36,597 nucleotides of DNA from Candidatus Bathyarchaeota archaeon (GTDB taxonomy: Archaea > Thermoproteota > Bathyarchaeia > Bathyarchaeales > Bathycorpusculaceae): NCBI GenBank assembly GCA_003601605.1, contig PIXZ01000012.1, forward strand, positions 1-36,597, written 5' to 3'. The notes beneath the pieces are model-generated. The model did no database searches and had not been told where the DNA came from. It was given only the letters and a program-made list of their open reading frames with translations. Positions 6,961 to 33,529 of the stretch are shown here, in pieces. The position numbers and the translations under genes were made by a program. How positions within the stretch are numbered: the stretch's first letter is position 1; each line of letters begins with the position of its first letter.

Positions 6961-7090
6961 AAAGGCAACTCCAACTTTCTTATTATCATTTTAATACTCT
7001 AATTTAGACCTTTCCCTATCTTATCAGCAAACTATAAACATTAAAACAATTTATCAAAGAATATAGTAATCTAGTGTGGAGAAAACTATT

Positions 7091-7813
7091 ATGAAAATCT
7101 GTGATGCTCACGTTCATTTAGGCGAGTCTGGACCGTGGCAGCCTTATATAAACCCGACAATTTACGTTGAAGAACTTATTCAGCTTTTCAACAAATACAA
7201 TGTTGAAAGAGCCGTTGTCTTTCCAAATCCAAACGTAGGCGACAAATATCCTGAAATGAACAACTATATTGCAGAATGTGTAAAAAAACATCCTAAACGC
7301 CTTGTTGGATTCGGGCGTTTAGACCCCCGAAGGGAAGACGCTACAAAAGAGCTGGACCGTATAAAAAACAGTTTAGGCTTGAAAGGACTTAAATTGCACC
7401 CAATGGTTGAATGTTTTAGACCAGACCATCCATTTTTCAACAGTTTCTTCGAAAAAGCTGATCAGCTGAAAATTCCAATACTGTTCCATTCAGGGAACGG
7501 CTTTTCCTCGCCAGGATTAATTATAAAAATCGCAAAAAAACATCCTAATCTTCCCATTATCATAGGGCACTTAAGAGAATCTGCTATTGCAGCATTAAAA
7601 GAATGTGAAAATGTTTATGTGGAAACTTCTGGCACTCTACCAGACTATATCGAACTTTCTGTAGACGTAGACGAAAATAGGGTATTATTCGGTTCAGATG
7701 TGCCATACTACCGTTATCCTACACAAATAGCCATTGTTGAAGCCGCAGAAATTTCCCCTAAAGCCAAAAGGAAAGTTTTTTCTGAAAACTTCCAAAAACT
7801 GTTTAAAGGATAA
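7091..7813 (+). CDS. Amidohydrolase family (amidohydrolase-2 type) metal-dependent hydrolase
   Basis: MKICDAHVHLGESG (HxH), LKLHPM, IIGHLR, VLFGSDVPY motifs. Confidence 0.88.
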   Translation: MKICDAHVHLGESGPWQPYINPTIYVEELIQLFNKYNVERAVVFPNPNVGDKYPEMNNYIAECVKKHPKRLVGFGRLDPRREDATKELDRIKNSLGLKGLKLHPMVECFRPDHPFFNSFFEKADQLKIPILFHSGNGFSSPGLIIKIAKKHPNLPIIIGHLRESAIAALKECENVYVETSGTLPDYIELSVDVDENRVLFGSDVPYYRYPTQIAIVEAAEISPKAKRKVFSENFQKLFKG

Positions 7814-7835: not shown

Positions 7836-9239
7836 ATGACTTTAGAATGCATTGATTGCGGCTCAAAATTCTCTTTAGCAACCATCTTGAAAGGCAGATG
7901 CGAAAAATGCGGTGGGCTACTAGAATATAAAATTGTTCTACCAAAACATGGCAGAGTCAAATTTTCTGGACAAAGGGGTTTTTGGCGTTATAAACCTTTA
8001 CTTCCCCAGGTAAAAAATAAGGTTAGTTTAGGAGAGGGTGGGACACCTCTTCATAAAGCGGAAAGGCTTGCCAAAGATTTAGGACTGCGAAAGTTGTTTT
8101 TGAAGGATGAGACTCGTAACCCTACCAACTCTTTTCGAGACCGTGCAGCAGCACTTATGACGTCTCATGCTTTGGACTTGAAATATGACACGCTGGTATG
8201 CGCTACTAACGGAAATCTTGGGGCTTCTCTTTCTGCTTACTGTGCAAAGGCTGGCTTAAACTGCCACATAATTGTCCCAAAACTCGTGGATGTCGGCAAA
8301 TTGGCTCAAATGCTTGTTTACGACGCTGTTATTGAAGAGTATGGGAATATTGTAGACGAAGCCATAGTTAAAGCTGAAGCTTTGGCAAAAGAAATGAACT
8401 GGTATCAAGCAACCGCAGAGCTGAATCCCTTAGTTATTGAAGCACAAAAAACCATTTCATACGAGATTTTCGAGCAACTAGGTGTTCCAGACTGGTTTAT
8501 AGCTTCTATGGGAAGCGGAGGAACCATCTACTCTGTATGGAAAGGGTTCAAAGAACTTAAACAGTTGGGAATAGCAGATTCTTTGCCAAAAATGGTGGGC
8601 GTTCAACCAGAAGGAAGCGCGTCCATAATTAAAACAATTCTAGAAGATCGTTCCAAAATTGCTGAAGTTTCAAAACCTTCCACCCATGCTCTGGCAGTGC
8701 TGGTTTCTAAGCCGTTGCAAGGAAAACTGGCAATAAAAGCAATAAAAGAGTCGAATGGAATGGCTTTAACAGTTTCTGACGCGGAAATTTTCGCTGCAGA
8801 ACTCCAAATAGCCAAACTTGAAGGAATGTTTGCAGAACCAGCCAGCTCAGCCACCATAGCCGCTTTAAAAAAGCTTGTTGAAACAGAAAAGATTCGCAGC
8901 GAAGACAGCGTTGTTTGCCTTATAACTGGAAGCGGCTTAAAGGCTACAGACGTTCTCCAGTCTCTAACCAAAAAGCAAAAAACAGCGGGATTCGGGCTGG
9001 AACTGAGCACTAAAGAGAAAATACTGCGGGTTTTAAACAAAAAAGACACTTATGGCTATGATTTGTGGAAAAGACTTGGAAAAACAATGACACGGGGTGC
9101 CATTTACCAGCATTTAAACGAGCTCTCAAAAAGGGGACTAATAGTGAGCTATAAAAAAGATAGGAAAAAGTTTTTCAAGATTACACAGCGCGGAAAAAGA
9201 GTTTTACGAGCCATAGATGATTTGAAACTTCTACTTTAG
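7836..9239 (+). CDS. thrC: Threonine synthase-like PLP enzyme with N-terminal zinc ribbon and C-terminal winged-helix (PadR-like) domain
   Basis: MTLECIDCGSKFSLATILKGRCEKCGG; SLGEGGTPLHKAERL; NPTNSFRDRAA; VCATNGNLGASLSAY; C-term EKILRVLNKKDTYGYDLWKRLGKTMTRGAIYQHLNELSKRGLIVSYKKDRKKFFKITQRGKRVL. Confidence 0.92.
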   Translation: MTLECIDCGSKFSLATILKGRCEKCGGLLEYKIVLPKHGRVKFSGQRGFWRYKPLLPQVKNKVSLGEGGTPLHKAERLAKDLGLRKLFLKDETRNPTNSFRDRAAALMTSHALDLKYDTLVCATNGNLGASLSAYCAKAGLNCHIIVPKLVDVGKLAQMLVYDAVIEEYGNIVDEAIVKAEALAKEMNWYQATAELNPLVIEAQKTISYEIFEQLGVPDWFIASMGSGGTIYSVWKGFKELKQLGIADSLPKMVGVQPEGSASIIKTILEDRSKIAEVSKPSTHALAVLVSKPLQGKLAIKAIKESNGMALTVSDAEIFAAELQIAKLEGMFAEPASSATIAALKKLVETEKIRSEDSVVCLITGSGLKATDVLQSLTKKQKTAGFGLELSTKEKILRVLNKKDTYGYDLWKRLGKTMTRGAIYQHLNELSKRGLIVSYKKDRKKFFKITQRGKRVLRAIDDLKLLL

Positions 9240-9256
9240 CTAGAAAAACTAATATA

Positions 9257-9274
9257 GTATAGTTACAACTATAC
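9257..9274. promoter_or_regulatory. Candidate operator: 18-bp inverted repeat GTATAGTT-AC-AACTATAC
   Basis: Perfect 8-bp arms with 2-nt spacer, ending 6 bp upstream of the GTG start at 9280. Confidence 0.45.
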
Positions 9275-9279
9275 CAATC

Positions 9280-10032
9280 GTGGTAAAGGTGAACGAGAAA
9301 TCACCCGTCTATTTAACAGTAACAGCCATATTTACCGCCCTAGTTTGCGTCGTAACAATAATGTTTTCCGTATATGTTCCTGCAACAGAAGGATTCTTCA
9401 ACATCGGCGAATCCATGGTTTTCCTGTCCGCTTTACTCTTCGGTCCTTATGTTGGAGCCTTCGCTGGAGGCGTGGGTTCCATGCTTGCCGACATACTGTT
9501 AGGTTACTCTCATTACGCGCCAGCTACACTTGTCATCAAGGCATGTGAAGGCTTTCTTGTTGGGACGCTTAAAAAGAAAAATCCAAAACTTATTTCCGAA
9601 TCACACTGGAAATTTTTCACATTAATTTTAGGCATTATCGTCGGTTTACTACTTGGCGGAATAGGCACCACATATTACAGTGGCGATGTAACAATAACCT
9701 TAGGCGCACAAACATTTCAGTTGTATATCCCCTTAGAGTTTTGGATTCTTCTAGGAGTTGCAGTAGCCATATCTATATCAGCTTTCGGTTTTCTGGCAGA
9801 CCCAGAATTCGGATGGATGGTCTTTTCCGTGATTAGCGGAGGATGCATAATGGTTTTGGGATATTTCCTCTATCAAATGTTCCTACTCTACCCTCTCTTC
9901 AAAATAGAAGCAGTAGCTGTGGCTGAAGTTCCAATAAATATTGGACAAATGATAATAGGAGCAATAGTAGCCTTACCAATAACAAAAATAGTATGGCGTA
10001 TGCTTCCATATTTAAAAGAAAGCAAAAATTAA
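9280..10032 (+). CDS. ECF transporter S component-like membrane protein
   Basis: VYLTVTAIFTALVCVVTIMFSVYVPATEGFFNIGESMVFLSALLFGPYVGAFAGGVGSMLADILLGYSHYAPATLVIKACEGFLVG: S-component hallmark pattern. Confidence 0.85.
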   Translation: MVKVNEKSPVYLTVTAIFTALVCVVTIMFSVYVPATEGFFNIGESMVFLSALLFGPYVGAFAGGVGSMLADILLGYSHYAPATLVIKACEGFLVGTLKKKNPKLISESHWKFFTLILGIIVGLLLGGIGTTYYSGDVTITLGAQTFQLYIPLEFWILLGVAVAISISAFGFLADPEFGWMVFSVISGGCIMVLGYFLYQMFLLYPLFKIEAVAVAEVPINIGQMIIGAIVALPITKIVWRMLPYLKESKN

Positions 10033-10067
10033 ACAATACAAAAGTATAACAAACGGAGGAAAAGACT

Positions 10068-11099
10068 CTGGCATTTCCTTTTGGAAAAATTCCACCCAGC
10101 ATCTTAGAGAACATAATATTCAAAAATTTAGGTTTCAAACGTAAAGAAGTTGTTTTAGGCCCTTCCTTAGGGTTTGACGGAGCAGTTATCAACATAGGAG
10201 ACAAATCCCTAATCACATCAATGGACCCTATAACTGGAGCAGTAGAGCACATAGGATGGCTAGCCGTACACATCAACGCTAATGACATAGCCACTTTCGG
10301 CGTAGAACCCGCATTCTTTCTCTCATGTATCCTACTTCCAAAAAAGGTAAACAAGAAAATAGTTAAAAAAATAAGCGTCCAGATGGATAAAGCCGCAAAA
10401 GAGTTAAAAATCGCCATTATTGGAGGACACTGCGAAGTTACACCCGGATTAAGCGCCCCTTTGGTTATAGGCTGTGCCATTGGCATAACGGAAAAAGGAA
10501 AATATGTAACGGCTGGAGGAGCTAAACCGGGAGATAAGCTGATTTTAACTAAAACTGTTGGAATTGAAGGGACAGCGATTCTTGCCATGGAAAAAGAGAA
10601 ACTGCTTAAAGAAAAACTTGACCCAAAAATTGTTGATAACGCCAAGAATTTTTATGAGAAAATAAGCGTCGTCAAAGAAGCAGTTATCGCTTTTAACACA
10701 GGCAGCGTCAACGCCATGCATGACCCAACGGAAGGCGGCTTAGCTGGTGGAATACATGAGATGGCTGATGCTTCAAATTTAGGTGTAAAAGTTTATGAGG
10801 AAAAGATTCCAGTGGCTAAAGAAACCTTGGAGATTTGCAATTTTTTTGAAATTGACCCTTTACAACTTATAAGTTCAGGGGCATTGCTTATAGCTTCTCA
10901 ACAAGGTTCAACAGAGAAAATTCTTCAAAAGTTAAGAAAACATGGAATTAAGGCGCGTATCATCGGCGAATTTCTAGACTCTCCAAGTAAACGAGTGTTA
11001 ATTCGTAAAGATGGAAAAGAAATAAATCTTGTTCGCCCAGAAAGTGACCATCTGTGGAAAGCCTTAACAAAAATTAACGATAATAGTTTCACCTACTAG
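10068..11099 (+). CDS. AIR synthase-related / HypE-like protein (not HypE itself), apparent CTG start
   Basis: Reading frame extends upstream of the ORF-track ATG (10221): (M)AFPFGKIPPSILENIIFKNLGFKRKEVVLGPSLGFDGAVINIGDKSLITSMDPITG. GGAGGA at 10055-10060, CTG at 10068, in-frame TAA at 10047. Lacks C-terminal PRxC. Confidence 0.85.
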   Translation: MAFPFGKIPPSILENIIFKNLGFKRKEVVLGPSLGFDGAVINIGDKSLITSMDPITGAVEHIGWLAVHINANDIATFGVEPAFFLSCILLPKKVNKKIVKKISVQMDKAAKELKIAIIGGHCEVTPGLSAPLVIGCAIGITEKGKYVTAGGAKPGDKLILTKTVGIEGTAILAMEKEKLLKEKLDPKIVDNAKNFYEKISVVKEAVIAFNTGSVNAMHDPTEGGLAGGIHEMADASNLGVKVYEEKIPVAKETLEICNFFEIDPLQLISSGALLIASQQGSTEKILQKLRKHGIKARIIGEFLDSPSKRVLIRKDGKEINLVRPESDHLWKALTKINDNSFTY

Positions 11100-24258: not shown

Positions 24259-24702
24259 CTACTCTCCGCTTTCTTGTGGGGTTTCCGCTAAGATTTCTCC
24301 GCCAGCCTCTTTTATTTTTTCAGCCGCTAACTTTGAGTAGGACGACACTTTTACAATTATTGGTTTTGTAATTTTGCCTGTTCCAAGAAGTTTTGTGTAG
24401 CCGAGACTTCCTAGGTCTACGAAAAGTTTTGCTTTTTCCTTTTTAGTGGCAATTTTTTCGGCTATTTCATCTAGTTCTCCCAAGTTTACAATGTTTTCTT
24501 TTCGATGAAGGCTTTTAGGCGAAGTGAATCCTTTTTTCCCAAAATAGTCTGGTTCATATCTTATAACGTAAGACCATCCGTGCTTATGTCGTCCAGCCTT
24601 GCGATATCCTTTAGAGCCTGACTTTCTATGCTGCCCTACTCTACCGTAGCCTTGGGTTCTTGAACCGCGTTTCTTTCTGATTTTTCTGAGTTTGTGCGGC
24701 AT
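24259..24702 (-). CDS. rpl15: Ribosomal protein uL15
   Basis: MPHKLRKIRKKRGSRTQGYGRVGQHRKSGSKGYRKAGRHKHGW. Confidence 0.96.
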   Translation of the reverse strand: MPHKLRKIRKKRGSRTQGYGRVGQHRKSGSKGYRKAGRHKHGWSYVIRYEPDYFGKKGFTSPKSLHRKENIVNLGELDEIAEKIATKKEKAKLFVDLGSLGYTKLLGTGKITKPIIVKVSSYSKLAAEKIKEAGGEILAETPQESGE

Positions 24703-24705
24703 TCC

Positions 24706-25164
24706 CTAACCAGCCAGTTCGTCTATAGCTTTTTCTTTTTCTTCCTTTTTTAACCGTATCTCTAAGACACCATTCTTATATCTTGTACGTAAACTTTCTG
24801 GAATCACTCTTTTCGGAAGATTTAAACTTTTATAATATTTGCGCTCTGGAGCCTCAGCAGACAATAGTAGTCTTTGGTTTTTCACCTTAACCCTTAAGTT
24901 TTCCCTTTTGAACCCAGCGAAATCTGCAACAACTATAATGTCGTCTTTCTCTTCTAGGATATCAATTAAAGGCTGAGGCTCTTTCCAGCCCACCTTCTTA
25001 TCTAATCTAAAAACTCTGTATTTTAACGGGTATGTTTGCTTTTTAAATTTTGAACTTTTAATGTGCCACATTGGAAAATTTTTCTTATTCCTGCATCTGT
25101 TGAAGTTTCTTATGGCATGGAACCAGTTTGAATTTTTCTTATTTCTTCGCCACTTCGCGCTCAA
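24706..25164 (-). CDS. Hsp20/alpha-crystallin-like protein with basic N-terminal extension
   Basis: PLIDILEEKDDIIVVADFAGFKRENLRVKVKNQRLLLSAEAPERKYYKSLNLPKRVIPESLRTRYKNGVLEIRLKK. Start uncertain. Confidence 0.8.
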   Translation of the reverse strand: MSAKWRRNKKNSNWFHAIRNFNRCRNKKNFPMWHIKSSKFKKQTYPLKYRVFRLDKKVGWKEPQPLIDILEEKDDIIVVADFAGFKRENLRVKVKNQRLLLSAEAPERKYYKSLNLPKRVIPESLRTRYKNGVLEIRLKKEEKEKAIDELAG

Positions 25165-25244
25165 TCTCGCCTTCTCCTAGGTACTATGGCATTTCAAAAG
25201 TGGCTATAAAATGTATCGCAAAAGAAAATAGCAAAAGCAGCAGC

Positions 25245-25733
25245 CTAAACCATTCGTTTTATTAGCTCGTTAATTTTTTCTCCGCGATAGCCTAATTCGC
25301 CGCCCATCCTATAGCTCTTTTTTATTTTTCCCTTAAAGCCTTTGCTAGGCGGGTGTAGTTTGAAAACCGGCTGGATATTGGGCAGTTTCCAATATTCGGT
25401 TTGACATTTAAAAACTGCCAGTGCAAGTTCTTCAAGCGACTTGTAGCCGATTTTCTGTGCATACTCGTCTGTAAGTTTCTTGCCGCCCGCCAGTCTTCCC
25501 CTTTCCTTTATAAGCAGTTTCACGGCCTCTTCTGAGGCTTCTCCCCATGTTATGAAGTTTTGCGCAGTTTTTAACATTCCCAAAAAGGATGGACGGTTAT
25601 CAATTAACACAGCATAATTGTTTCTTTTTAGGTTAAGCATCTGCAAAGTTTCTCTAACTTCTCTTGGGGCACTTATTACTCCACGAATCCTTACAGCTAC
25701 AATGCACTTTCGCTCGTTACTCTTTCTAGCCAT
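25245..25733 (-). CDS. rpl30: Ribosomal protein uL30
   Basis: IVAVRIRGVISAPREVRETLQMLNLKRNNYAVLIDNRPSFLGML. Confidence 0.96.
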   Translation of the reverse strand: MARKSNERKCIVAVRIRGVISAPREVRETLQMLNLKRNNYAVLIDNRPSFLGMLKTAQNFITWGEASEEAVKLLIKERGRLAGGKKLTDEYAQKIGYKSLEELALAVFKCQTEYWKLPNIQPVFKLHPPSKGFKGKIKKSYRMGGELGYRGEKINELIKRMV

Positions 25734-26369
25734 TTATCTTCCCCAATCCATCGGAGTTATAAGACTATAAGTGTTCTTCAACGCGTCAAAAACAGCGTAA
25801 GCAAAAGAAGGCACAGTTCTTGTGGAACCGTAACTTCTCGTCCAGCAATCCTTTATGCCCGCAAGATTAAGGATAACTTTTGCAACTTCACTTGCTACAA
25901 GACCTAAGCCCCTTGGTCCAGGAACAATAACTATTCTCACGCCACCGCATTTTCCTTCAGTCAAGAATGGGACAGAATGGGGTCTTCCGCAACCACATTC
26001 CCAGCTTCCACATCCACGTCTCACAGGAACAAGGTTCAAACGGGCGTCGGCAGCTGCCTTTTCTATGGCGGTTCTAACTTGGCTTGCTTTTCCAGAGCCT
26101 AACCCTATATATCCGTCTCTGTTTCCAACAGCAACTATCGCCTTAAACCTTGATTTTTCACCAGCGTCTGTTTGTTTCTGAACCAGATTAATGTTTATGA
26201 CTTCTTCTTGAATATCTGGAAGTAAAGCGTCAACGATTTGCGGCTCTTTTATCCGTATACCACCCGTAAAAACCTCTTCAATAGAAGTGATTCTTCCTTC
26301 CAGAATCATTTTTCCAAGACGGGTTCGTGGAACCCATTGTTCTAAACTTTGAGAAGTTCTCCGCGGCAT
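25734..26369 (-). CDS. rps5: Ribosomal protein uS5
   Basis: WVPRTRLGKMILEGRITSIEE...AIVAVGNRDGYIGLGSGKASQVRTAIEKA. Confidence 0.97.
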   Translation of the reverse strand: MPRRTSQSLEQWVPRTRLGKMILEGRITSIEEVFTGGIRIKEPQIVDALLPDIQEEVININLVQKQTDAGEKSRFKAIVAVGNRDGYIGLGSGKASQVRTAIEKAAADARLNLVPVRRGCGSWECGCGRPHSVPFLTEGKCGGVRIVIVPGPRGLGLVASEVAKVILNLAGIKDCWTRSYGSTRTVPSFAYAVFDALKNTYSLITPMDWGR

Positions 26370-26980
26370 TACTTTTTCTTACCTCCAGCCTTAAACGCAG
26401 TCAACATTTTCTTCTTAACTTCTGCAAAATGTTTTGGCAGATTTTCAGGAGGAAGTTTATGCACTATATAGTTAGAAAACCTTGACTGGTAAACTTCAGG
26501 ATTTGAAGAGGCCAAGATTTTCGCGTATTCTGCTATGTGTTCGCCGCTTATCCGTTTCTCATCTGGGATTCTTTCTTCACTATGAGGTATATTCATTCCA
26601 GAATCTAGCGCTCCTTTTAAAACAGCAAAAACTCTTGCCCCTTTAGAAGGTGAATGCAATCCTATATCTAGAATAGCTTCTTTTATCCCTTTAACCTTGG
26701 CCTTTAATCCGCACAGAAGTCCAGTAAGATAAGCTGCAGGAATGTTTCCTCTTGGAACTTTCCAACCATGTTCCCTTGCAAGTTCTCTGCTATGAGCCGA
26801 AACGAGAACTTCGTCTCCTTCAGGTTTGGCTACGACAATCTGGGCAATTATATTTTTTAAACTGCCCCGCACAACCAGTCTAGGCTTTTTAGAAAGTATT
26901 AACGCTTTTCTTGCTTTGTAATCTGTTTTTCCTTCTCTTCTCCGTCTGAACGGAACACGGTAACGGGCGCCCTTTGCCAT
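26369..26980 (-). CDS. rpl18: Ribosomal protein uL18
   Basis: [44 protein letters not shown]; start corrected from 26995. Confidence 0.96.
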
Positions 26981-27435
26981 CAGCGTTTCCTCCAAAGCTC
27001 ATGAGCCTTTAAGTAGCGTTCAAGGTCTCCAACAGATTCGAATCTTCCGCTGCTGGCCATTTTGTACAGCTTGCGATAAGTGGTTTCAGTAATTGTCCTA
27101 CTGGCCTTTAGTTCACGGAGCTTCTTTCTTAAAGCCCGAATTTTTTTCATCCAAGCTTCTTTTTTGGGGAGTCTTGCTCCTCGAGAACCGCTTCTGCTGC
27201 CGTGTCCACGTCTCTTTCCCTTCCTTTTCTTTTCCTTTAAAACTCTGGCTCGAGCTCGGCTTACTCCCTTCTCTGGCAATGGTTTAATAACGCCTTCGTG
27301 TATGAGTTTCCGAATTTCCTCTCGTGTTATGGCTGCTTCTACATCATCTATTCTTTCTGGATTTATCCAAACCCTGTTTTGTCCCACTTTCAATATTTGG
27401 GCTGCAAGACGTCGTTGACTTTTGAGACCGGTCAT
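26980..27435 (-). CDS. rpl19e: Ribosomal protein eL19
   Basis: [42 protein letters not shown]. Confidence 0.97.
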
Positions 27436-27998
27436 TCTTTTTCAGCCTCTTTCTTTGTTTTTGCTTTTCTTTTTTGTCTACGTTTGCGTTTCGGCTTCGG
27501 CTTTTTCTTTTCTTCCTTTTCCTCGGCTTCCTCTTTCTTTTCGAGTTCTTCCTTTTTTTCTTCCTCTTCTACAAGCCTCTTCTCTTCTTCAATTGCTTCC
27601 TTGGCTTCTTTCAAATTCAAAATCTTTATCTTCTTTTTTCTCGCTTCAACAAGAATTCTCGCCCGCTTCCTTTTACCCACAGTATGTGCAATTCGTATGG
27701 CCTGAGTTTTCGGGTTGACTCCTCTAAGTTCACTTAAACTGTGCACGAGAACTTCTTCATAACCTGAAGGGTGAAGTCCCCTAGCAACCTTCGGGCCTCT
27801 ATAACCTACACTTACGGTGGCTGGCCATCCCTTGATCTTTCTCCGCATTTTGTTGTCTATTCCACGGGGCCTGCGCCAGTTCTCTTTAAGACGTTTATAT
27901 CTCCAGCTTTCTTGTCTTACAAAATCTGGTTTTTTCGCTTTCACTCGTTTTCTAAGCTTCAGTGCTTTTTCCTTAGTCACAGCGTTTTGTTCCGTCAC
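27432..27998 (-). CDS. rpl32e: Ribosomal protein eL32 with long K/E-rich C-terminal tail
   Basis: FVRQESWRYKRLKENWRRPRGIDNKMRRKIKGWPATVSVGYRGPKVARGLHPSG...; tail [52 protein letters not shown]. Confidence 0.95.
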   Translation of the reverse strand: MTEQNAVTKEKALKLRKRVKAKKPDFVRQESWRYKRLKENWRRPRGIDNKMRRKIKGWPATVSVGYRGPKVARGLHPSGYEEVLVHSLSELRGVNPKTQAIRIAHTVGKRKRARILVEARKKKIKILNLKEAKEAIEEEKRLVEEEEKKEELEKKEEAEEKEEKKKPKPKRKRRQKRKAKTKKEAEKE

Positions 27999-28543
27999 TC
28001 TTCCATTCCCTCGCTTCTTTCGTATACGTAAATGCCGTCTAAGAAGACGCGGGGGTCTTTGTTTTTCACTTTTGTGGCTTGTTCTATGTTTGCTGCTGTT
28101 TGGCTTACGTCTTCCAAATTTATTCCTTGAATGATTATGTCTTCGCTTTGAACTTTGATTTTGACGTCTCCTATTATTTTGGCTTTTCTCGGGTTTCGTT
28201 CTCCCGTAAAGTTTTCGATTAAAACTTCTTTGTCTTTAACTTTTACTGAGATTGGAAAGTGAGAAAAGACTATTTTAAGCTTGTATGTGAATCCTTTTCT
28301 GACTCCTGTAATCATGTTTTGAATGTGGGAGTAAATTGTGCCTACAAGGGCTGCTTCTTTCTTGCGGGGCCATTCCGCCCATACCCGTATTGTTTTATCG
28401 TTTAGTTCAAGTTTTATTGGGGCGTAGGAAAAGTCGCGGGTTAAGGTTCCCTTGACGCCTTTAACTGTTACTTTCTTTCCTTCTAGAGTTACCTCTACGT
28501 CTTCGGGAATCTGAAGGGTTTTTGAGACTTCTACAGCCCGCAT
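27995..28543 (-). CDS. rpl6: Ribosomal protein uL6
   Basis: IPEDVEVTLEGKKVTVKGVKGTLTRDFSY...IQNMITGVRKGFTYKLKIVFSHFPISV. Confidence 0.97.
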   Translation of the reverse strand: MRAVEVSKTLQIPEDVEVTLEGKKVTVKGVKGTLTRDFSYAPIKLELNDKTIRVWAEWPRKKEAALVGTIYSHIQNMITGVRKGFTYKLKIVFSHFPISVKVKDKEVLIENFTGERNPRKAKIIGDVKIKVQSEDIIIQGINLEDVSQTAANIEQATKVKNKDPRVFLDGIYVYERSEGMEE

Positions 28544-28556
28544 TTGAAATCATCCT

Positions 28557-28961
28557 CTAGTAAACGAAGGCTAATAGTCTTCCTCCCACACGTTTTTCCT
28601 TTGCATCTCTATGTGATTGCACTCCGTTTGGTGTTGAAATTATTAATATTCCTACCTCTCTTGATGGGAGAAATTTTTTCTCCCATTCTTCAATTTTTTC
28701 AAATTTAACGGAAAAATGCGGTTTTATCGCTCCACACTTGTTTATTCTTCCCAAAAGTTGAACCTTAAACTTTCCAGAACGTCCATCATCTATAAACTCA
28801 AACTCTCCAATGTAGCCGTTTAACTGCATTATCCTCAGAACTTTTCCTAAAAGTTTGGAGGCTGGGCTAATCACGCATTCGCGCTTGTTTCGCATCTCGT
28901 TGTTCATGATTGTTGTTAAACCATTAGCTATGGTATCCATCAGCGCTTCCTCGTTACTCAT
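28557..28961 (-). CDS. rps8: Ribosomal protein uS8
   Basis: [55 protein letters not shown]; start corrected. Confidence 0.96.
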
Positions 28962-29118
28962 ATTTTTTAAACCCAAGTTTTTTGGCTACTTCCCTAAAAC
29001 AATGTCTACATAAATATAAATTGTAACGTCGAATAACTGGCCCATACGACCCGCATCTACTGCATGGTCTCGCTCCTTTTCCATATTTTCTTTCTTTCTT
29101 AGGTTTCTGTTTACCCAT
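28954..29118 (-). CDS. rps14: Ribosomal protein uS14 (zinc form)
   Basis: [54 protein letters not shown] (CxxC...CxxC); start corrected. Confidence 0.96.
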
Positions 29119-29134
29119 ATGCGCATCTCCTCCT

Positions 29135-29674
29135 CTATACGACTTCAACTCCTAAAGCTTCCTTAACGAAAACCATGGCTTCTTCAGGTGTTAAAAGGTG
29201 TTTGGAGCCGATTTTTGTTTTTTCTATTCTCCGTTTTTTAACACGGTATCCGGGGCGACTTAGAGAAACACAAATGTCCATGCCGAAAATTCCTATTTCC
29301 GGGTCATATCTAACTCCGGGGATTTCTATGTGTTCTTTTATGCCGAAGGAAAAGTTGCCGCGTTCATCGAAGCATTCTTTGGAAATTTTGTTGTCCACTA
29401 CGGGTAAAACTTTCTTTAAAAATTCTATGGCTTTTTGTTTTCTTAAGGTTACCATACAAGCGATGGGTTCTCCCTTTCTGATACCGAAATCCCTTATGGT
29501 TTTCTTAGCTTTTCTTTTACATGGATTCTGCCCTGCCAACTCCTTTAAAACTTTAGCGGCTTTTTCCAGCGGTTCGCCAGATTTTCCGATGCTCATGTTG
29601 ACCACTACTTTTTCGATTCTGGGTTTAAGCATTGGCTGTTGTTCCCAAGCTTTGAGTATTTCTTCTTCAGCCAT
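29135..29674 (-). CDS. rpl5: Ribosomal protein uL5
   Basis: [61 protein letters not shown]. Confidence 0.97.
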
Positions 29675-29675
29675 T

Positions 29676-30434
29676 TTATGACGCCTCAGGTAGGGTTATG
29701 AGCGGTTTGTCTTCGCCTATGGCAAAAACAAAGTTTAAGACCGTTTGGTAAGTGTTGCCTTTCTCGTCCTCGATTTTTACCAAAGTGTGTCTGCGTTTCT
29801 TTCCTTCAGCTTTTTCAATCTCAACGATTTTTCCGTAATTGCCAATGTTTTTTCCGCCAGTAATTATGGCAAAGTTGCCTTCTTTCATTTTAACGTGTTC
29901 TAGAATTTCTCTTTCGGGTAGACTTATTTTTAAAGTGTCAAATGTTTTGTAAACATTCCCTTGAGAAGTTTCCGATTCAGATGTTTTAATAAGTATGTTT
30001 GAACCGTCGTGAAGGTTAAGTTGTATATGCCCATTTTTTACAACAGTCTTATTTTCAATTCTGCAAAGCTTAAATTTCGCCTCTTCCTGGTTGATGGGGT
30101 GCAGAATTAAACCTTTCTTAGATGGTAAAATGCGGAAGCACTTATCAACGTCCGTTATGGAAAGAACATCCATCAAACCTACGGGAAAGTCGTCTTCCCA
30201 CCGAATTTTTCCATCAACGTAAACTTTTCCACTAGAAACTATAGCCTTAGACTCCTTTCTTGTACGTGCAAACTCAAGAATTTCTCGTAAAATTATAGCT
30301 AAAGGCAAACAGTTGTCTAAAGAATGAGGCCCTGGAGATGGCCTAACAGTCCATACAAATTCTTTTCGGTGGATTGGCCATGAACGTGGTGCAGGTTTGC
30401 GCTTTAAACCTGTGGATGCTCCTTTTTTACCCAA
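29676..30434 (-). CDS. rps4e: Ribosomal protein eS4
   Basis: RPSPGPHSLDNCLPLAIILREILEFARTRKESKAIVSSGKVYVDGKIRWEDDFPVGLMDVLSI. Confidence 0.97.
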   Translation of the reverse strand: MGKKGASTGLKRKPAPRSWPIHRKEFVWTVRPSPGPHSLDNCLPLAIILREILEFARTRKESKAIVSSGKVYVDGKIRWEDDFPVGLMDVLSITDVDKCFRILPSKKGLILHPINQEEAKFKLCRIENKTVVKNGHIQLNLHDGSNILIKTSESETSQGNVYKTFDTLKISLPEREILEHVKMKEGNFAIITGGKNIGNYGKIVEIEKAEGKKRRHTLVKIEDEKGNTYQTVLNFVFAIGEDKPLITLPEAS

Positions 30435-30436
30435 AT

Positions 30437-31060
30437 TTAGGTTCCTCCTTTACTCTTAGTTTTTCTTGTAGTTCTCTTTTTTGTCGTGCGTTTTCTTTTC
30501 TTAGGCTTTTTCTCCTTTTCTTTTTCTGTTTCCTTTTTTGCTTTTTTCGCTCTTGGTTTTTTGACTGGAGCTTTCTTTCTTCTTTTAGGCTTTTCTTCTA
30601 CAAGCTTTTCTTCAGCAACTTCTTCTTTTACTTCTAAAACCTTCTTTGGAGTTTTCTCCACGATTTTCTCTCTTTTAAGACGCTCTGACCTCTTTCTTTC
30701 CAAGACTTTTTTACGCCATTTATCGTCCAAATTCAATTTTGTAATCATAACTTTTGATGGGTGTATGGACGCAAATATTGTTGTTCCGTCAACCTTCTCT
30801 CTTGTTAATCCTTCAACATAGATTCTATAATTCTTTCTATCTACTCGCGTTATTTTTCCTTCAAATCCTTTGTGGTCTCCCCTCATTACGCGCACTGTGT
30901 CACCGCTTCTAACTGGAAGACTTCTGACGCCGTGGGATGCTTTCAGTTCTGGCGAGAGGGGTGCAGCCATAAGTTTGTAGCGTATATGGTCTGGGGCTTG
31001 ATACAGCCTTTTCCTCTGTTTTGAAGGTTTGGTTGCAGGTTTTAATGCTTGCATTTTCAC
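30437..31060 (-). CDS. rpl24: Ribosomal protein uL24 with long lysine-rich C-terminal extension
   Basis: VRSLPVRSGDTVRVMRGDHKGFEGKITRVDRKNYRIYVEGLTREKVDGTTIFASIHPSKVMITKLNLDDKWRK; then low-complexity K/E/R tail. Confidence 0.95.
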   Translation of the reverse strand: MKMQALKPATKPSKQRKRLYQAPDHIRYKLMAAPLSPELKASHGVRSLPVRSGDTVRVMRGDHKGFEGKITRVDRKNYRIYVEGLTREKVDGTTIFASIHPSKVMITKLNLDDKWRKKVLERKRSERLKREKIVEKTPKKVLEVKEEVAEEKLVEEKPKRRKKAPVKKPRAKKAKKETEKEKEKKPKKRKRTTKKRTTRKTKSKGGT

Positions 31061-31065
31061 TCATC

Positions 31066-31506
31066 TCATATTATTATGCTGGCGGCACTTGCTATTCTAG
31101 GCCATCTTTCAGCAGCTTCTTTCGCTACTGGCCCGCGGATTTCTGAACCTTTCATTTCACCGTCAGGGGTTATTATCACCGCCGCATTATCTTCGAATTG
31201 AACCCATATGCCTTCGGCTCTCCTGTAGGGTTTTCTTTGCCTCACGATAACTGCTTGGAAGATTTTCTTTCTCATGTCTGGCGACCCGTGCCTAACAGAA
31301 ACTATTATTCTGTCGCCTACAGCAGCGGAGGGATAGCGTCGCAATCCTCCCTTGTAACCCATAACCTGAATTAGCCGTAGTTCTCTGGCTCCGGTGTTGT
31401 CGGCGCATTTTAGAAGAGCACCTGTTGGCAGTCCTCTTGAAATTTTAGGTCCGTGTCCAAGCATCCCTCTAGCGATTAGGGCTCTTTGTTTTGCTCTTGC
31501 CGCCAT
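31066..31506 (-). CDS. rpl14: Ribosomal protein uL14
   Basis: [60 protein letters not shown]; start corrected. Confidence 0.97.
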
Positions 31507-31507
31507 T

Positions 31508-31831
31508 TCACTTTTCCTCCAGTTTTTCAACTACGACGAATGATACTGTTTTGCTTATGGGGCGGCATTCAGCTATTCTTACGCGTTCTCCTTCTTTTGC
31601 GTTTATGCATGGAGGATTGTGGGAAGGTATACGGCTTTGTCTTCTTTCGTATCTCATAAATTTTGGAACATAATATAGGTATTCACGTTTCACTATTACC
31701 GTTTTATCCATTTTTGCACTTACAACAACTCCCTCTAACACGCGGCCTCTTACGGGTAAGTCTCCGTGGAATGGACAGTTTCTGTCTGTGCATGTTTTCT
31801 TTGGTTTCTTAAAAGTTAGAGACATTACCAA
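31508..31831 (-). CDS. rps17: Ribosomal protein uS17
   Basis: [63 protein letters not shown]. Confidence 0.97.
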
Positions 31832-32106
31832 AGCCTCCTAACACGTTTTTTAAGGCGGTCTTCTGGTCTTCCTACGAGAAGTTTACCGTCGATTTCAACG
31901 ATTGTTCCGTCAGGGAATTTGAAGTGAAAAATGGCAGTGTCCTTTACAATTGTTTTTCTTTTCCCTTCATGTTCCAGTATGAAAGTGTTACGAGTTTCAT
32001 CTATTACTTTTCCAGCTATTCCAACATAACCAGAATGGATACTTTTCGCAACTTTTGCTTCTGTTCCTATAAATTCATAGCGAATTATGTTTGGTGTGAC
32101 TTTCAT
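31825..32106 (-). CDS. rnp1: Ribonuclease P protein component 1 (Rpp29/Pop4)
   Basis: IIRYEFIGTEAKVAKSIHSGYVGIAGKVIDETRNTFILEHEGKRKTIVKDTAIFHFKFPDGTIVEIDGKLLVGRPEDRLKKR. Confidence 0.95.
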   Translation of the reverse strand: MKVTPNIIRYEFIGTEAKVAKSIHSGYVGIAGKVIDETRNTFILEHEGKRKTIVKDTAIFHFKFPDGTIVEIDGKLLVGRPEDRLKKRVRRLW

Positions 32107-32342
32107 TTCCTTTTCTTCTCCTTTTGCTTCTGTTTTTCTGGTTTGGTTTTTTGTTCGTTTTCGATTGTAAGTATGCGTGCAATGGTTTTTCGGAGCTGTC
32201 TTATTCTCGCAGGGTTTTCTATGGTGCCGCCTGCTTTAATCATGGTTTTCAGTCTGAGAAGCTCGGTTTTTAGTTCTGCAATTTTTTTGTTTCGTTCTTC
32301 GGAGGACATTTCGCGAATTTCTTTTATTCTAAGTATCGGCAT
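32103..32342 (-). CDS. rpl29: Ribosomal protein uL29
   Basis: MPILRIKEIREMSSEERNKKIAELKTELLRLKTMIKAGGTIENPARIRQLRKTIARILT; start corrected. Confidence 0.95.
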   Translation of the reverse strand: MPILRIKEIREMSSEERNKKIAELKTELLRLKTMIKAGGTIENPARIRQLRKTIARILTIENEQKTKPEKQKQKEKKRK

Positions 32343-32343
32343 T

Positions 32344-33036
32344 TTATTCTGTTTCCTCCTTTTCTTCGCTAGTGGTTTCAACTGTCTCTTCGGTTGTTGC
32401 TTCTGCGACTGCTTTTTCCTCTGTTGTTTCTTCCTGTGGTGGACTTTCCACTATCTGGATTTTGTCTGGAAAAACCGCGTCGGGAGGCATTATCCTAACT
32501 TTCACACCAAATATGCCTGGTTTAAGTTGCACGTGGACTTCAGCCTTCCGCATGTATTTAAGGGCTGGTTCTCCACATTTTGGCAAGTATCCAGCTCGGA
32601 ACTTTTCGTATCTTGCTCTTTCGGTTCGCAGTTTACCGCTTATGATGATTTCTACGCCTAAGGCTCCCGCTTCCATCACCTGATTTAGCGCCCAAAATCC
32701 GGCTCGTCTGAAGTGTATGCCTCTTTGGAGGGCTGAGGCAATGCGGGAAGCGACAACATGAGCGTTTAGTTCTGGGATTTCTATTTCTGAAACTGAAATT
32801 TGAGGGTTTGAGACTCCGAATTTTTCTTCCAAAAGGCTTGCAAGTTCTCTTATGGTTTCTCCGCCGCGTCCTATCACTATTCCTGGACGCATGGCGTATA
32901 TGACTATGTGGGTTCCTAGGGGGGTTTTAGAAATGTTTACTCCGCCATAGCCTGCTCTTTCCAGTTTTTTCTGCAAAAATTCGTCGATTTCTGTTTTTTT
33001 AATAGATTCTGATATAAAGTGTTTAACGACAGCCAT
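32344..33036 (-). CDS. rps3: Ribosomal protein uS3 with E/T-rich C-terminal tail
   Basis: RPGIVIGRGGETIRELASLLEEKFGVSNPQISVSEIEIPELNAHVVASRIASALQRGIHFRRA. Confidence 0.97.
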   Translation of the reverse strand: MAVVKHFISESIKKTEIDEFLQKKLERAGYGGVNISKTPLGTHIVIYAMRPGIVIGRGGETIRELASLLEEKFGVSNPQISVSEIEIPELNAHVVASRIASALQRGIHFRRAGFWALNQVMEAGALGVEIIISGKLRTERARYEKFRAGYLPKCGEPALKYMRKAEVHVQLKPGIFGVKVRIMPPDAVFPDKIQIVESPPQEETTEEKAVAEATTEETVETTSEEKEETE

Positions 33037-33037
33037 T

Positions 33038-33529
33038 TTAGGTTTCCTCTCCTGTTTCTAGGGGCTTTTCTTCTAGGGCTAGTTCAATGTGGGTTAGGGT
33101 TTCGAATTCTGGGGAGCTTCTTCCAAAAGCTCTCGGAGTGTAACGTTTAATTTTCATTCCAGGGTATGCGGCTGCGTGGATAATGCGGAGTCTGTCAGTG
33201 TCTAATCCTTTGTATTCAGCGTTGGCTTCCGCCCCTTCAAGGGCTTTTAGAATTTGTTTTGCTGCTTTCACGGGGTATCTGCCAGCATAAGCCTTTTCCA
33301 GTCCGTGGCGGTGTCCAGCCTTCTTTTTGAATCTTGTGAAGGGTACCGCCCTTTTTTTGGCTATGACTTCGCGGAGATATTTTTTGGCTTGAATAAGCAT
33401 CATGCCCTTAATTGTTTTGCATATTTCACGGGCAGATTTATGGGATACTCTAACCTCTCGTGCGCTTGCCTTGACTGTTTTTTCAGGGTCTAATTCTTCT
33501 TCTGTTATGGAGTATCCCCATTTTGGCAC
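33038..33529 (-). CDS. rpl22: Ribosomal protein uL22
   Basis: ASAREVRVSHKSAREICKTIKGMMLIQAKKYLREVIAKKRAVPFTRFKKKAGHRHGLEKAYAGRYPVKAAKQILKAL; GTG start. Confidence 0.96.
   Translation of the reverse strand: MPKWGYSITEEELDPEKTVKASAREVRVSHKSAREICKTIKGMMLIQAKKYLREVIAKKRAVPFTRFKKKAGHRHGLEKAYAGRYPVKAAKQILKALEGAEANAEYKGLDTDRLRIIHAAAYPGMKIKRYTPRAFGRSSPEFETLTHIELALEEKPLETGEET

Follow-up and report, generated by a model that had tools for sequence, protein, structure and literature searches.

A threonine synthase-like protein with a PadR-type winged helix, a predicted regulator of an ECF transporter gene in uncultured archaea

The locus and its fusion protein

We analyzed a stretch of DNA of 36,597 nucleotides (the window) from a Candidatus Bathyarchaeota archaeon (contig PIXZ01000012.1 of assembly GCA_003601605.1), in which a gene encoding a threonine synthase-like protein with a C-terminal winged helix is followed by a gene for the substrate-binding (S) component of an ECF transporter. 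The following features were assigned in the window:

7076-7813, + strand: amidohydrolase gene (Amidohydro_2, PF04909), upstream of the fusion gene and separated from it by 22 bp
7836-9239, + strand: fusion gene, encoding a threonine synthase-like protein of 467 aa that lacks the catalytic lysine and carries a PadR-type winged helix; proposed transcription factor (Pfam, NCBIfam, AlphaFold2, Foldseek)
7836-7910, + strand: N-terminal zinc-ribbon-like stretch with four cysteines (C5, C8, C22, C25), nearly invariant columns that are common to ThrC homologues
8022-8930, + strand: PALP domain (fold-type II PLP enzyme), proposed ligand sensor (Pfam, Foldseek)
8136-8138, + strand: codon of Arg101, in the column of Lys61, the Schiff-base lysine of the Thermus ThrC (alignment)
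9021-9209, + strand: PadR-type winged-helix DNA-binding domain, residues 396-458 (Pfam, PDB matches, AlphaFold2)
9255-9276, no strand assigned: operator-like palindrome TAGTATAGTTACAACTATACCA, the only match in the window and in its own assembly
9280-10032, + strand: S-component gene of an ECF transporter (PF07155; HmpT/PdxU2-related), the predicted target of regulation (Pfam, PDB match, neighbourhood)
10060-11099, + strand: AIRS-family gene (HypE/ThiL-like, below the NCBIfam cut-offs), after the S gene
24259-33529, - strand: long and apparently ordinary cluster of ribosomal-protein genes (reading of translations)

The fusion gene is a single unbroken open reading frame, and both Pfam domains of its product score above their cut-offs: PALP covers residues 63-365 (E 8e-76) and PadR (PF03551) covers residues 396-458 (E 6.5e-12; 45.7 bits against a gathering score of 27). 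These results confirm the proposal, made in a sequence-only reading of the window, of an uninterrupted ThrC-PadR fusion with a winged helix-turn-helix as its tail. Searched alone, the tail again matched PadR (E 7.9e-13), and PadR structures were among the top PDB matches of the winged helix. The AlphaFold2 model, a ligand-free monomer (mean pLDDT 90.1, pTM 0.79), also contains the predicted winged helix; it consists of a full ThrC fold, a helical linker (residues 371-402) whose centre (378-388) is poorly defined, the winged helix and a C-terminal helix. The top PDB matches of the model in Foldseek were threonine synthases (6nmx, TM 0.88 on target). A survey of the spread of the fusion found the same architecture in 121 full-length proteins, which rules out a chance join. 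The comparison set comprised these 121 fusions, from Thermoproteota and Asgard archaea, and 51 full-length tail-less ThrC homologues; the genomes compared are mostly metagenome assemblies.

The PLP-enzyme fold had been described as complete, which holds for the fold itself, as judged by AlphaFold2 and Foldseek, but not for the catalytic lysine. The PLP-lysine motif reads NPTNSFRDRA in the window fusion versus NPTGSFKDRG in a typical enzyme, and Arg101 aligns to the catalytic lysine of the Thermus, Aquifex and Mycobacterium enzymes. The lysine is absent from 106 of the 121 fusions, where it is replaced by Arg (72 proteins) or by Ile, Leu, Thr, Val, Met, Ala, Asn, Ser or Phe (34 proteins), and is kept in 51 of 51 tail-less homologues. 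We looked for a compensating new lysine in the Lys-less fusions and found none gained. The 15 fusions that keep the lysine, 14 from Asgard archaea (Lokiarchaeia; L024, L154, L157, L158, L160-L164, L167-L170, L178) and one from Thermoproteota (L117), have an altered substrate pocket as well, like the other fusions. Thr88, Asn154, Ser155 and Arg160 of Thermus ThrC, which we take to be the contacts to the substrate phosphate, correspond to Leu, Ala, Glu and Val in the window protein; the fusion groups, with or without the lysine, have other residues at these positions, and the tail-less group has the typical ones. Asn87, Thr317 and the glycine loop (Gly187/Gly189), presumably PLP contacts, are mostly retained in the fusions.

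The window's own assembly, which is 80% complete, encodes a second PALP protein with the motif NPTGSFKDRG, which exceeds the cut-off of the NCBIfam threonine synthase model NF005035 (458.6 against 301), and the lysine motif was matched elsewhere in 34 of 40 fusion-bearing genomes. The initial naming of the window protein as a threonine synthase is not supported, in view of the Schiff-base lysine lost from most of the family, the replaced phosphate-binding residues and this separate ThrC; by its sequence, the enzyme domain of the fusion is no working threonine synthase. The fusion protein nevertheless exceeds the cut-off of the thrC model TIGR00260 (212.7 against 167.1). It remains below that of NF004170 (PRK05638), also named threonine synthase (389.6 against 421), in a match that extends over its full length, including the C-terminal winged helix. 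The NF004170 cut-off is exceeded in 12 Thermoproteota genomes, and these members carry Arg at the Schiff-base lysine position.

A quick tree places 36 of the 37 tail-less rows on one side of a branch and all fusions on the opposite side, the exception being a long-branched tail-less copy from the window's own genome that is placed elsewhere. Because the two groups are split at one branch, the fusion may have arisen only once. The fusions from Lokiarchaeia that keep the lysine are nested among Arg-bearing ones with modest support. Together with the Lys-bearing fusion of Thermoproteota, they bear on the question of whether the lysine was retained or regained.

The transporter gene and its palindromes

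The S protein belongs to PF07155 (E 1e-33), and its sole significant PDB match is 4hzu_S, which is HmpT/PdxU2 (E 1.1e-9). When the genes neighbouring the 121 fusion loci were clustered, the ECF S component was the top family; in 86 of the 121 loci it is encoded no more than a few genes away from the fusion, mostly directly downstream, and divergent and convergent layouts also occur. ECF ATPase-like and T-component-like genes, named from reading their sequences, are found near the fusion in 18 and 6 loci, respectively. A gene similar to the amidohydrolase gene upstream of the fusion follows an operator-linked S gene at locus L231, on a contig other than that of the fusion, and the amidohydrolase may belong to the same pathway. 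For the AIRS-family gene of the window, no ATG, GTG or TTG start fits the conserved N-terminus; its frame stays open further upstream, where a CTG at approximately 10071 follows GGAGGAA.

In Bathyarchaeia of the Arg subfamily, the palindrome TAGTATAGTTNNAACTATACTA occupies the gap between the fusion gene and the S gene, and in the window lies within the S-gene promoter; for the window palindrome, zero matches are expected in shuffled sequence. Whole genomes were scanned for TAGTATAGTTNNAACTATACTA with up to two mismatches. It is present in 25 of the 31 fusion-bearing Bathyarchaeia genomes, always upstream of an S gene and at one place per genome, except for two neighbouring sites in genome G245; the remaining 6 of these 31 Arg-type genomes have no site at this threshold. 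The pattern has no match in the 39 fusion-free genomes, a set that includes 16 members of the window's own family. In G365 and G336 the palindrome is located on a contig other than that of the fusion, still directly before an S gene, and in G336 an S-gene fragment adjoins the fusion and has no palindrome.

Two other regulatory arrangements were considered and dropped. The upstream sequences inspected contain no shared palindrome directly before the Bathyarchaeia fusion gene, and an operator at this place was rejected because the shared site was located further downstream, ahead of the S gene. In 8 Bathyarchaeia loci the fusion has a true thrC as its divergent neighbour. This thrC was discarded as the regulated target because, in those of these genomes in which the palindrome occurs (G245, G203 and G050), the palindrome is at the S gene and not in the gap between thrC and the fusion.

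The divergent loci of the non-Arg subfamily contain a different palindrome, TATATARG-N6-CYTATATA, in their intergenic region. In whole-genome scans with up to one mismatch allowed, 18 of 20 genomes contain it, each at a single place apart from one extra site in G421; it is always beside a fusion, and in 17 cases also beside an S gene. In Lokiarchaeal loci with a convergent S gene that has its own promoter, the site precedes the S gene rather than the fusion. Genome G136 harbors both fusion subfamilies (L103, L082), each with its own palindrome type; near its second copy, L209, an S gene was not found. The extra site in G421 (C138:13292-13313, one mismatch to the non-Arg operator) is a possible further regulon member. 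An NF004170-like group (L073-L079, L095; family f19) has palindromes such as TTAAAGTTTAAACTTTAA, a third operator variant, which in some members (L075, L076) are located between the fusion and the S gene.

For both patterns together, a site is found near the S-gene start in 53 of 82 S-gene-bearing loci versus 1 site in 588 kb elsewhere. Since some of the scanned genomes and loci had also served to derive the patterns, a fair test is given by the genomes not used for that purpose, the S genes on contigs other than that of the fusion, and the fusion-free controls. The palindromes, which are AT-rich, show overlap with promoter elements of archaea. Most site centres fall 12-48 bp ahead of the annotated start codon, in the region of archaeal core promoters, and this position suggests repression.

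Proposed regulation and alternative readings

The conserved pairing of fusion, palindrome and S gene makes it very probable that the fusion protein regulates the neighbouring S gene. We consider it somewhat probable that the protein is, more specifically, a transcription factor, presumably a repressor of the S gene, in which a dead PLP-enzyme domain serves as a sensor of vitamin B6 or PLP. We infer that a dimer would bind the palindrome through its winged helices, with PLP, a B6 vitamer or a PLP-amino-acid adduct as the ligand, and would repress the S gene rather than activate it. In the proposed mechanism, a threonine synthase ancestor would have gained a C-terminal PadR-like winged helix, and its catalytic lysine would have been lost. 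The PALP domain, with most PLP-holding residues kept, would have become the sensor of these ligands. The winged helices of the dimer would occupy the palindrome (9255-9276), which shares sequence with the expected S-gene core promoter, and uptake through the S component would probably be repressed when the ligand is plentiful.

The earlier suggestion that the protein regulates transcription by sensing substrate, product or PLP is strongly supported as far as regulation is concerned, as the palindrome tracks the fusion and the transporter target genome-wide, but not for substrate or product, as the predicted target is not thrC. Since the predicted target is the S gene of an ECF vitamin transporter, PLP or a B6 vitamer is more likely to be the signal than phosphohomoserine or threonine. 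The same reading had suggested that the protein could be a trigger enzyme, here taken as an active threonine synthase that also controls transcription through phosphohomoserine or threonine. The TIGR00260 score and the eight loci with a divergent thrC would agree with such a protein, but it is rejected on the catalytic lysine and the substrate-phosphate residues, both of which are gone; with a separate thrC in the same genome and the palindrome of G245, G203 and G050 placed at the S gene, we regard it as highly improbable.

Three prokaryotic importers of B6 vitamers or PLP are listed as the only ones characterised, and PdxU and PdxU2/HmpT (both COG4720, PF07155) are two of them (PMC9997740). 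HmpT was originally taken for a hydroxymethylpyrimidine carrier, and its substrate was identified as pyridoxamine (PMC4860826). The S protein shares the PF07155 family with HmpT/PdxU2 (4HZU) and retains four of its six ligand residues, Glu41 (as Glu/Asp), Tyr120, Asn140 and Gln143, but not His84 and Gln87, which are changed to Lys and Glu in 98% of the archaeal relatives. Because these two residues are consistently changed, the cargo of the S protein may be other than pyridoxamine. It is thus conceivable, if rather unlikely, that the same factor controls the same target in response to the true cargo of the S component, another vitamin or a precursor such as that of thiamine, for which the PALP pocket would have been reshaped. 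The early assignment of HmpT, the two changed residues and the AIRS/ThiL/HypE-like gene, which is present at 25 loci and usually follows the S gene (at the +2 position in 21), are in line with this view, whereas the retention of most PLP contacts in the sensor domain and the B6 carriers of PF07155/COG4720 as nearest known relatives of the S protein argue for a B6-type ligand.

An amino acid as the signal is less probable still. Here the Lys-bearing Lokiarchaeal fusions would act in a MocR-like manner through an external aldimine of PLP and an amino acid, and the Lys-less majority would sense preformed PLP-amino-acid adducts. This would accommodate the 15 Lys-keeping fusions, whose ThrC pocket is altered and whose operator is still at the S gene, and Foldseek matched a Lys-less fold-II enzyme, the K41A O-acetylserine sulfhydrylase 1d6s, that holds PLP-Met; the target, however, is a vitamin-type importer and not a gene of amino-acid metabolism.

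The distribution of the PLP synthase PdxS was also compared. PdxS is encoded in 7 of 45 fusion-bearing versus 14 of 39 fusion-free genomes, and in 0 of the 16 fusion-free genomes of the window's own family. Its rarity fits B6 import but is confounded with lineage, because the fusion-free genomes of that family are without PdxS as well. A missing PdxS was dropped as proof of B6 dependence, since fusion-free Bathyarchaeia also lack it.

Comparison with known systems

For vitamin B6 regulation in Archaea, the family provides concrete candidates for a regulator, its operator and the transporter gene it targets in many uncultured lineages, Asgard archaea among them; if the proposal is true, a fold-type II PLP enzyme has turned into a transcription factor and its linkage lysine has been lost. 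Within the open-licence literature searched, we found no account in which the family is described as a regulator. NF004170 (PRK05638) already captures the fusion architecture, as the model includes the C-terminal winged helix, but under an enzyme name, and the databases appear to mislabel a widespread archaeal regulator family as an enzyme. Such a likely misannotation, in which the members retrieved above the cut-off of a curated 'threonine synthase' model lack the catalytic lysine, can corrupt metabolic reconstructions in genomes where the true thrC is not found.

Like the fusion, the bacterial MocR/GabR/PdxR regulators combine a PLP-enzyme domain as sensor with a winged helix. MocR proteins bind PLP through a lysine and consist of a fold-type I aminotransferase with an N-terminal GntR domain, whereas the fusion family is archaeal, mostly Lys-less (Arg101 in the window), and joins a fold-type II (ThrC) domain to a C-terminal PadR-like one. 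In its working the fusion would be similar to MocR/PdxR, but it stands outside the MocR family, because the PLP fold, the DNA-binding family and its position all differ and the lysine is missing. PdxR controls genes of B6 synthesis and uptake, including pdxU, and MocR has been reported absent from Archaea (PMC5320631). The chances are about even, in our estimate, that these archaeal factors derived from a fold-type II PLP enzyme sense PLP or its adduct without lysine linkage and control B6 import, as a counterpart of PdxR that evolved apart from the fold-type I MocR proteins and occurs in Thermoproteota and Asgard archaea.

Among the vitamin-gene regulators of Archaea, RbkR (vitamin B2) and ThiR (vitamin B1) resemble the fusion in concept and differ from it in enzyme fold and target. 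ThiR has a sensor that is a relative of thiamine phosphate synthase. With an N-terminal HTH domain, RbkR acts both as a gene regulator and as a riboflavin kinase (PMC8305020), and ThiR is a predicted regulator of thiamine transport (PMC10746257). If its ligand is confirmed, the fusion family would be the B6 counterpart of RbkR and ThiR.
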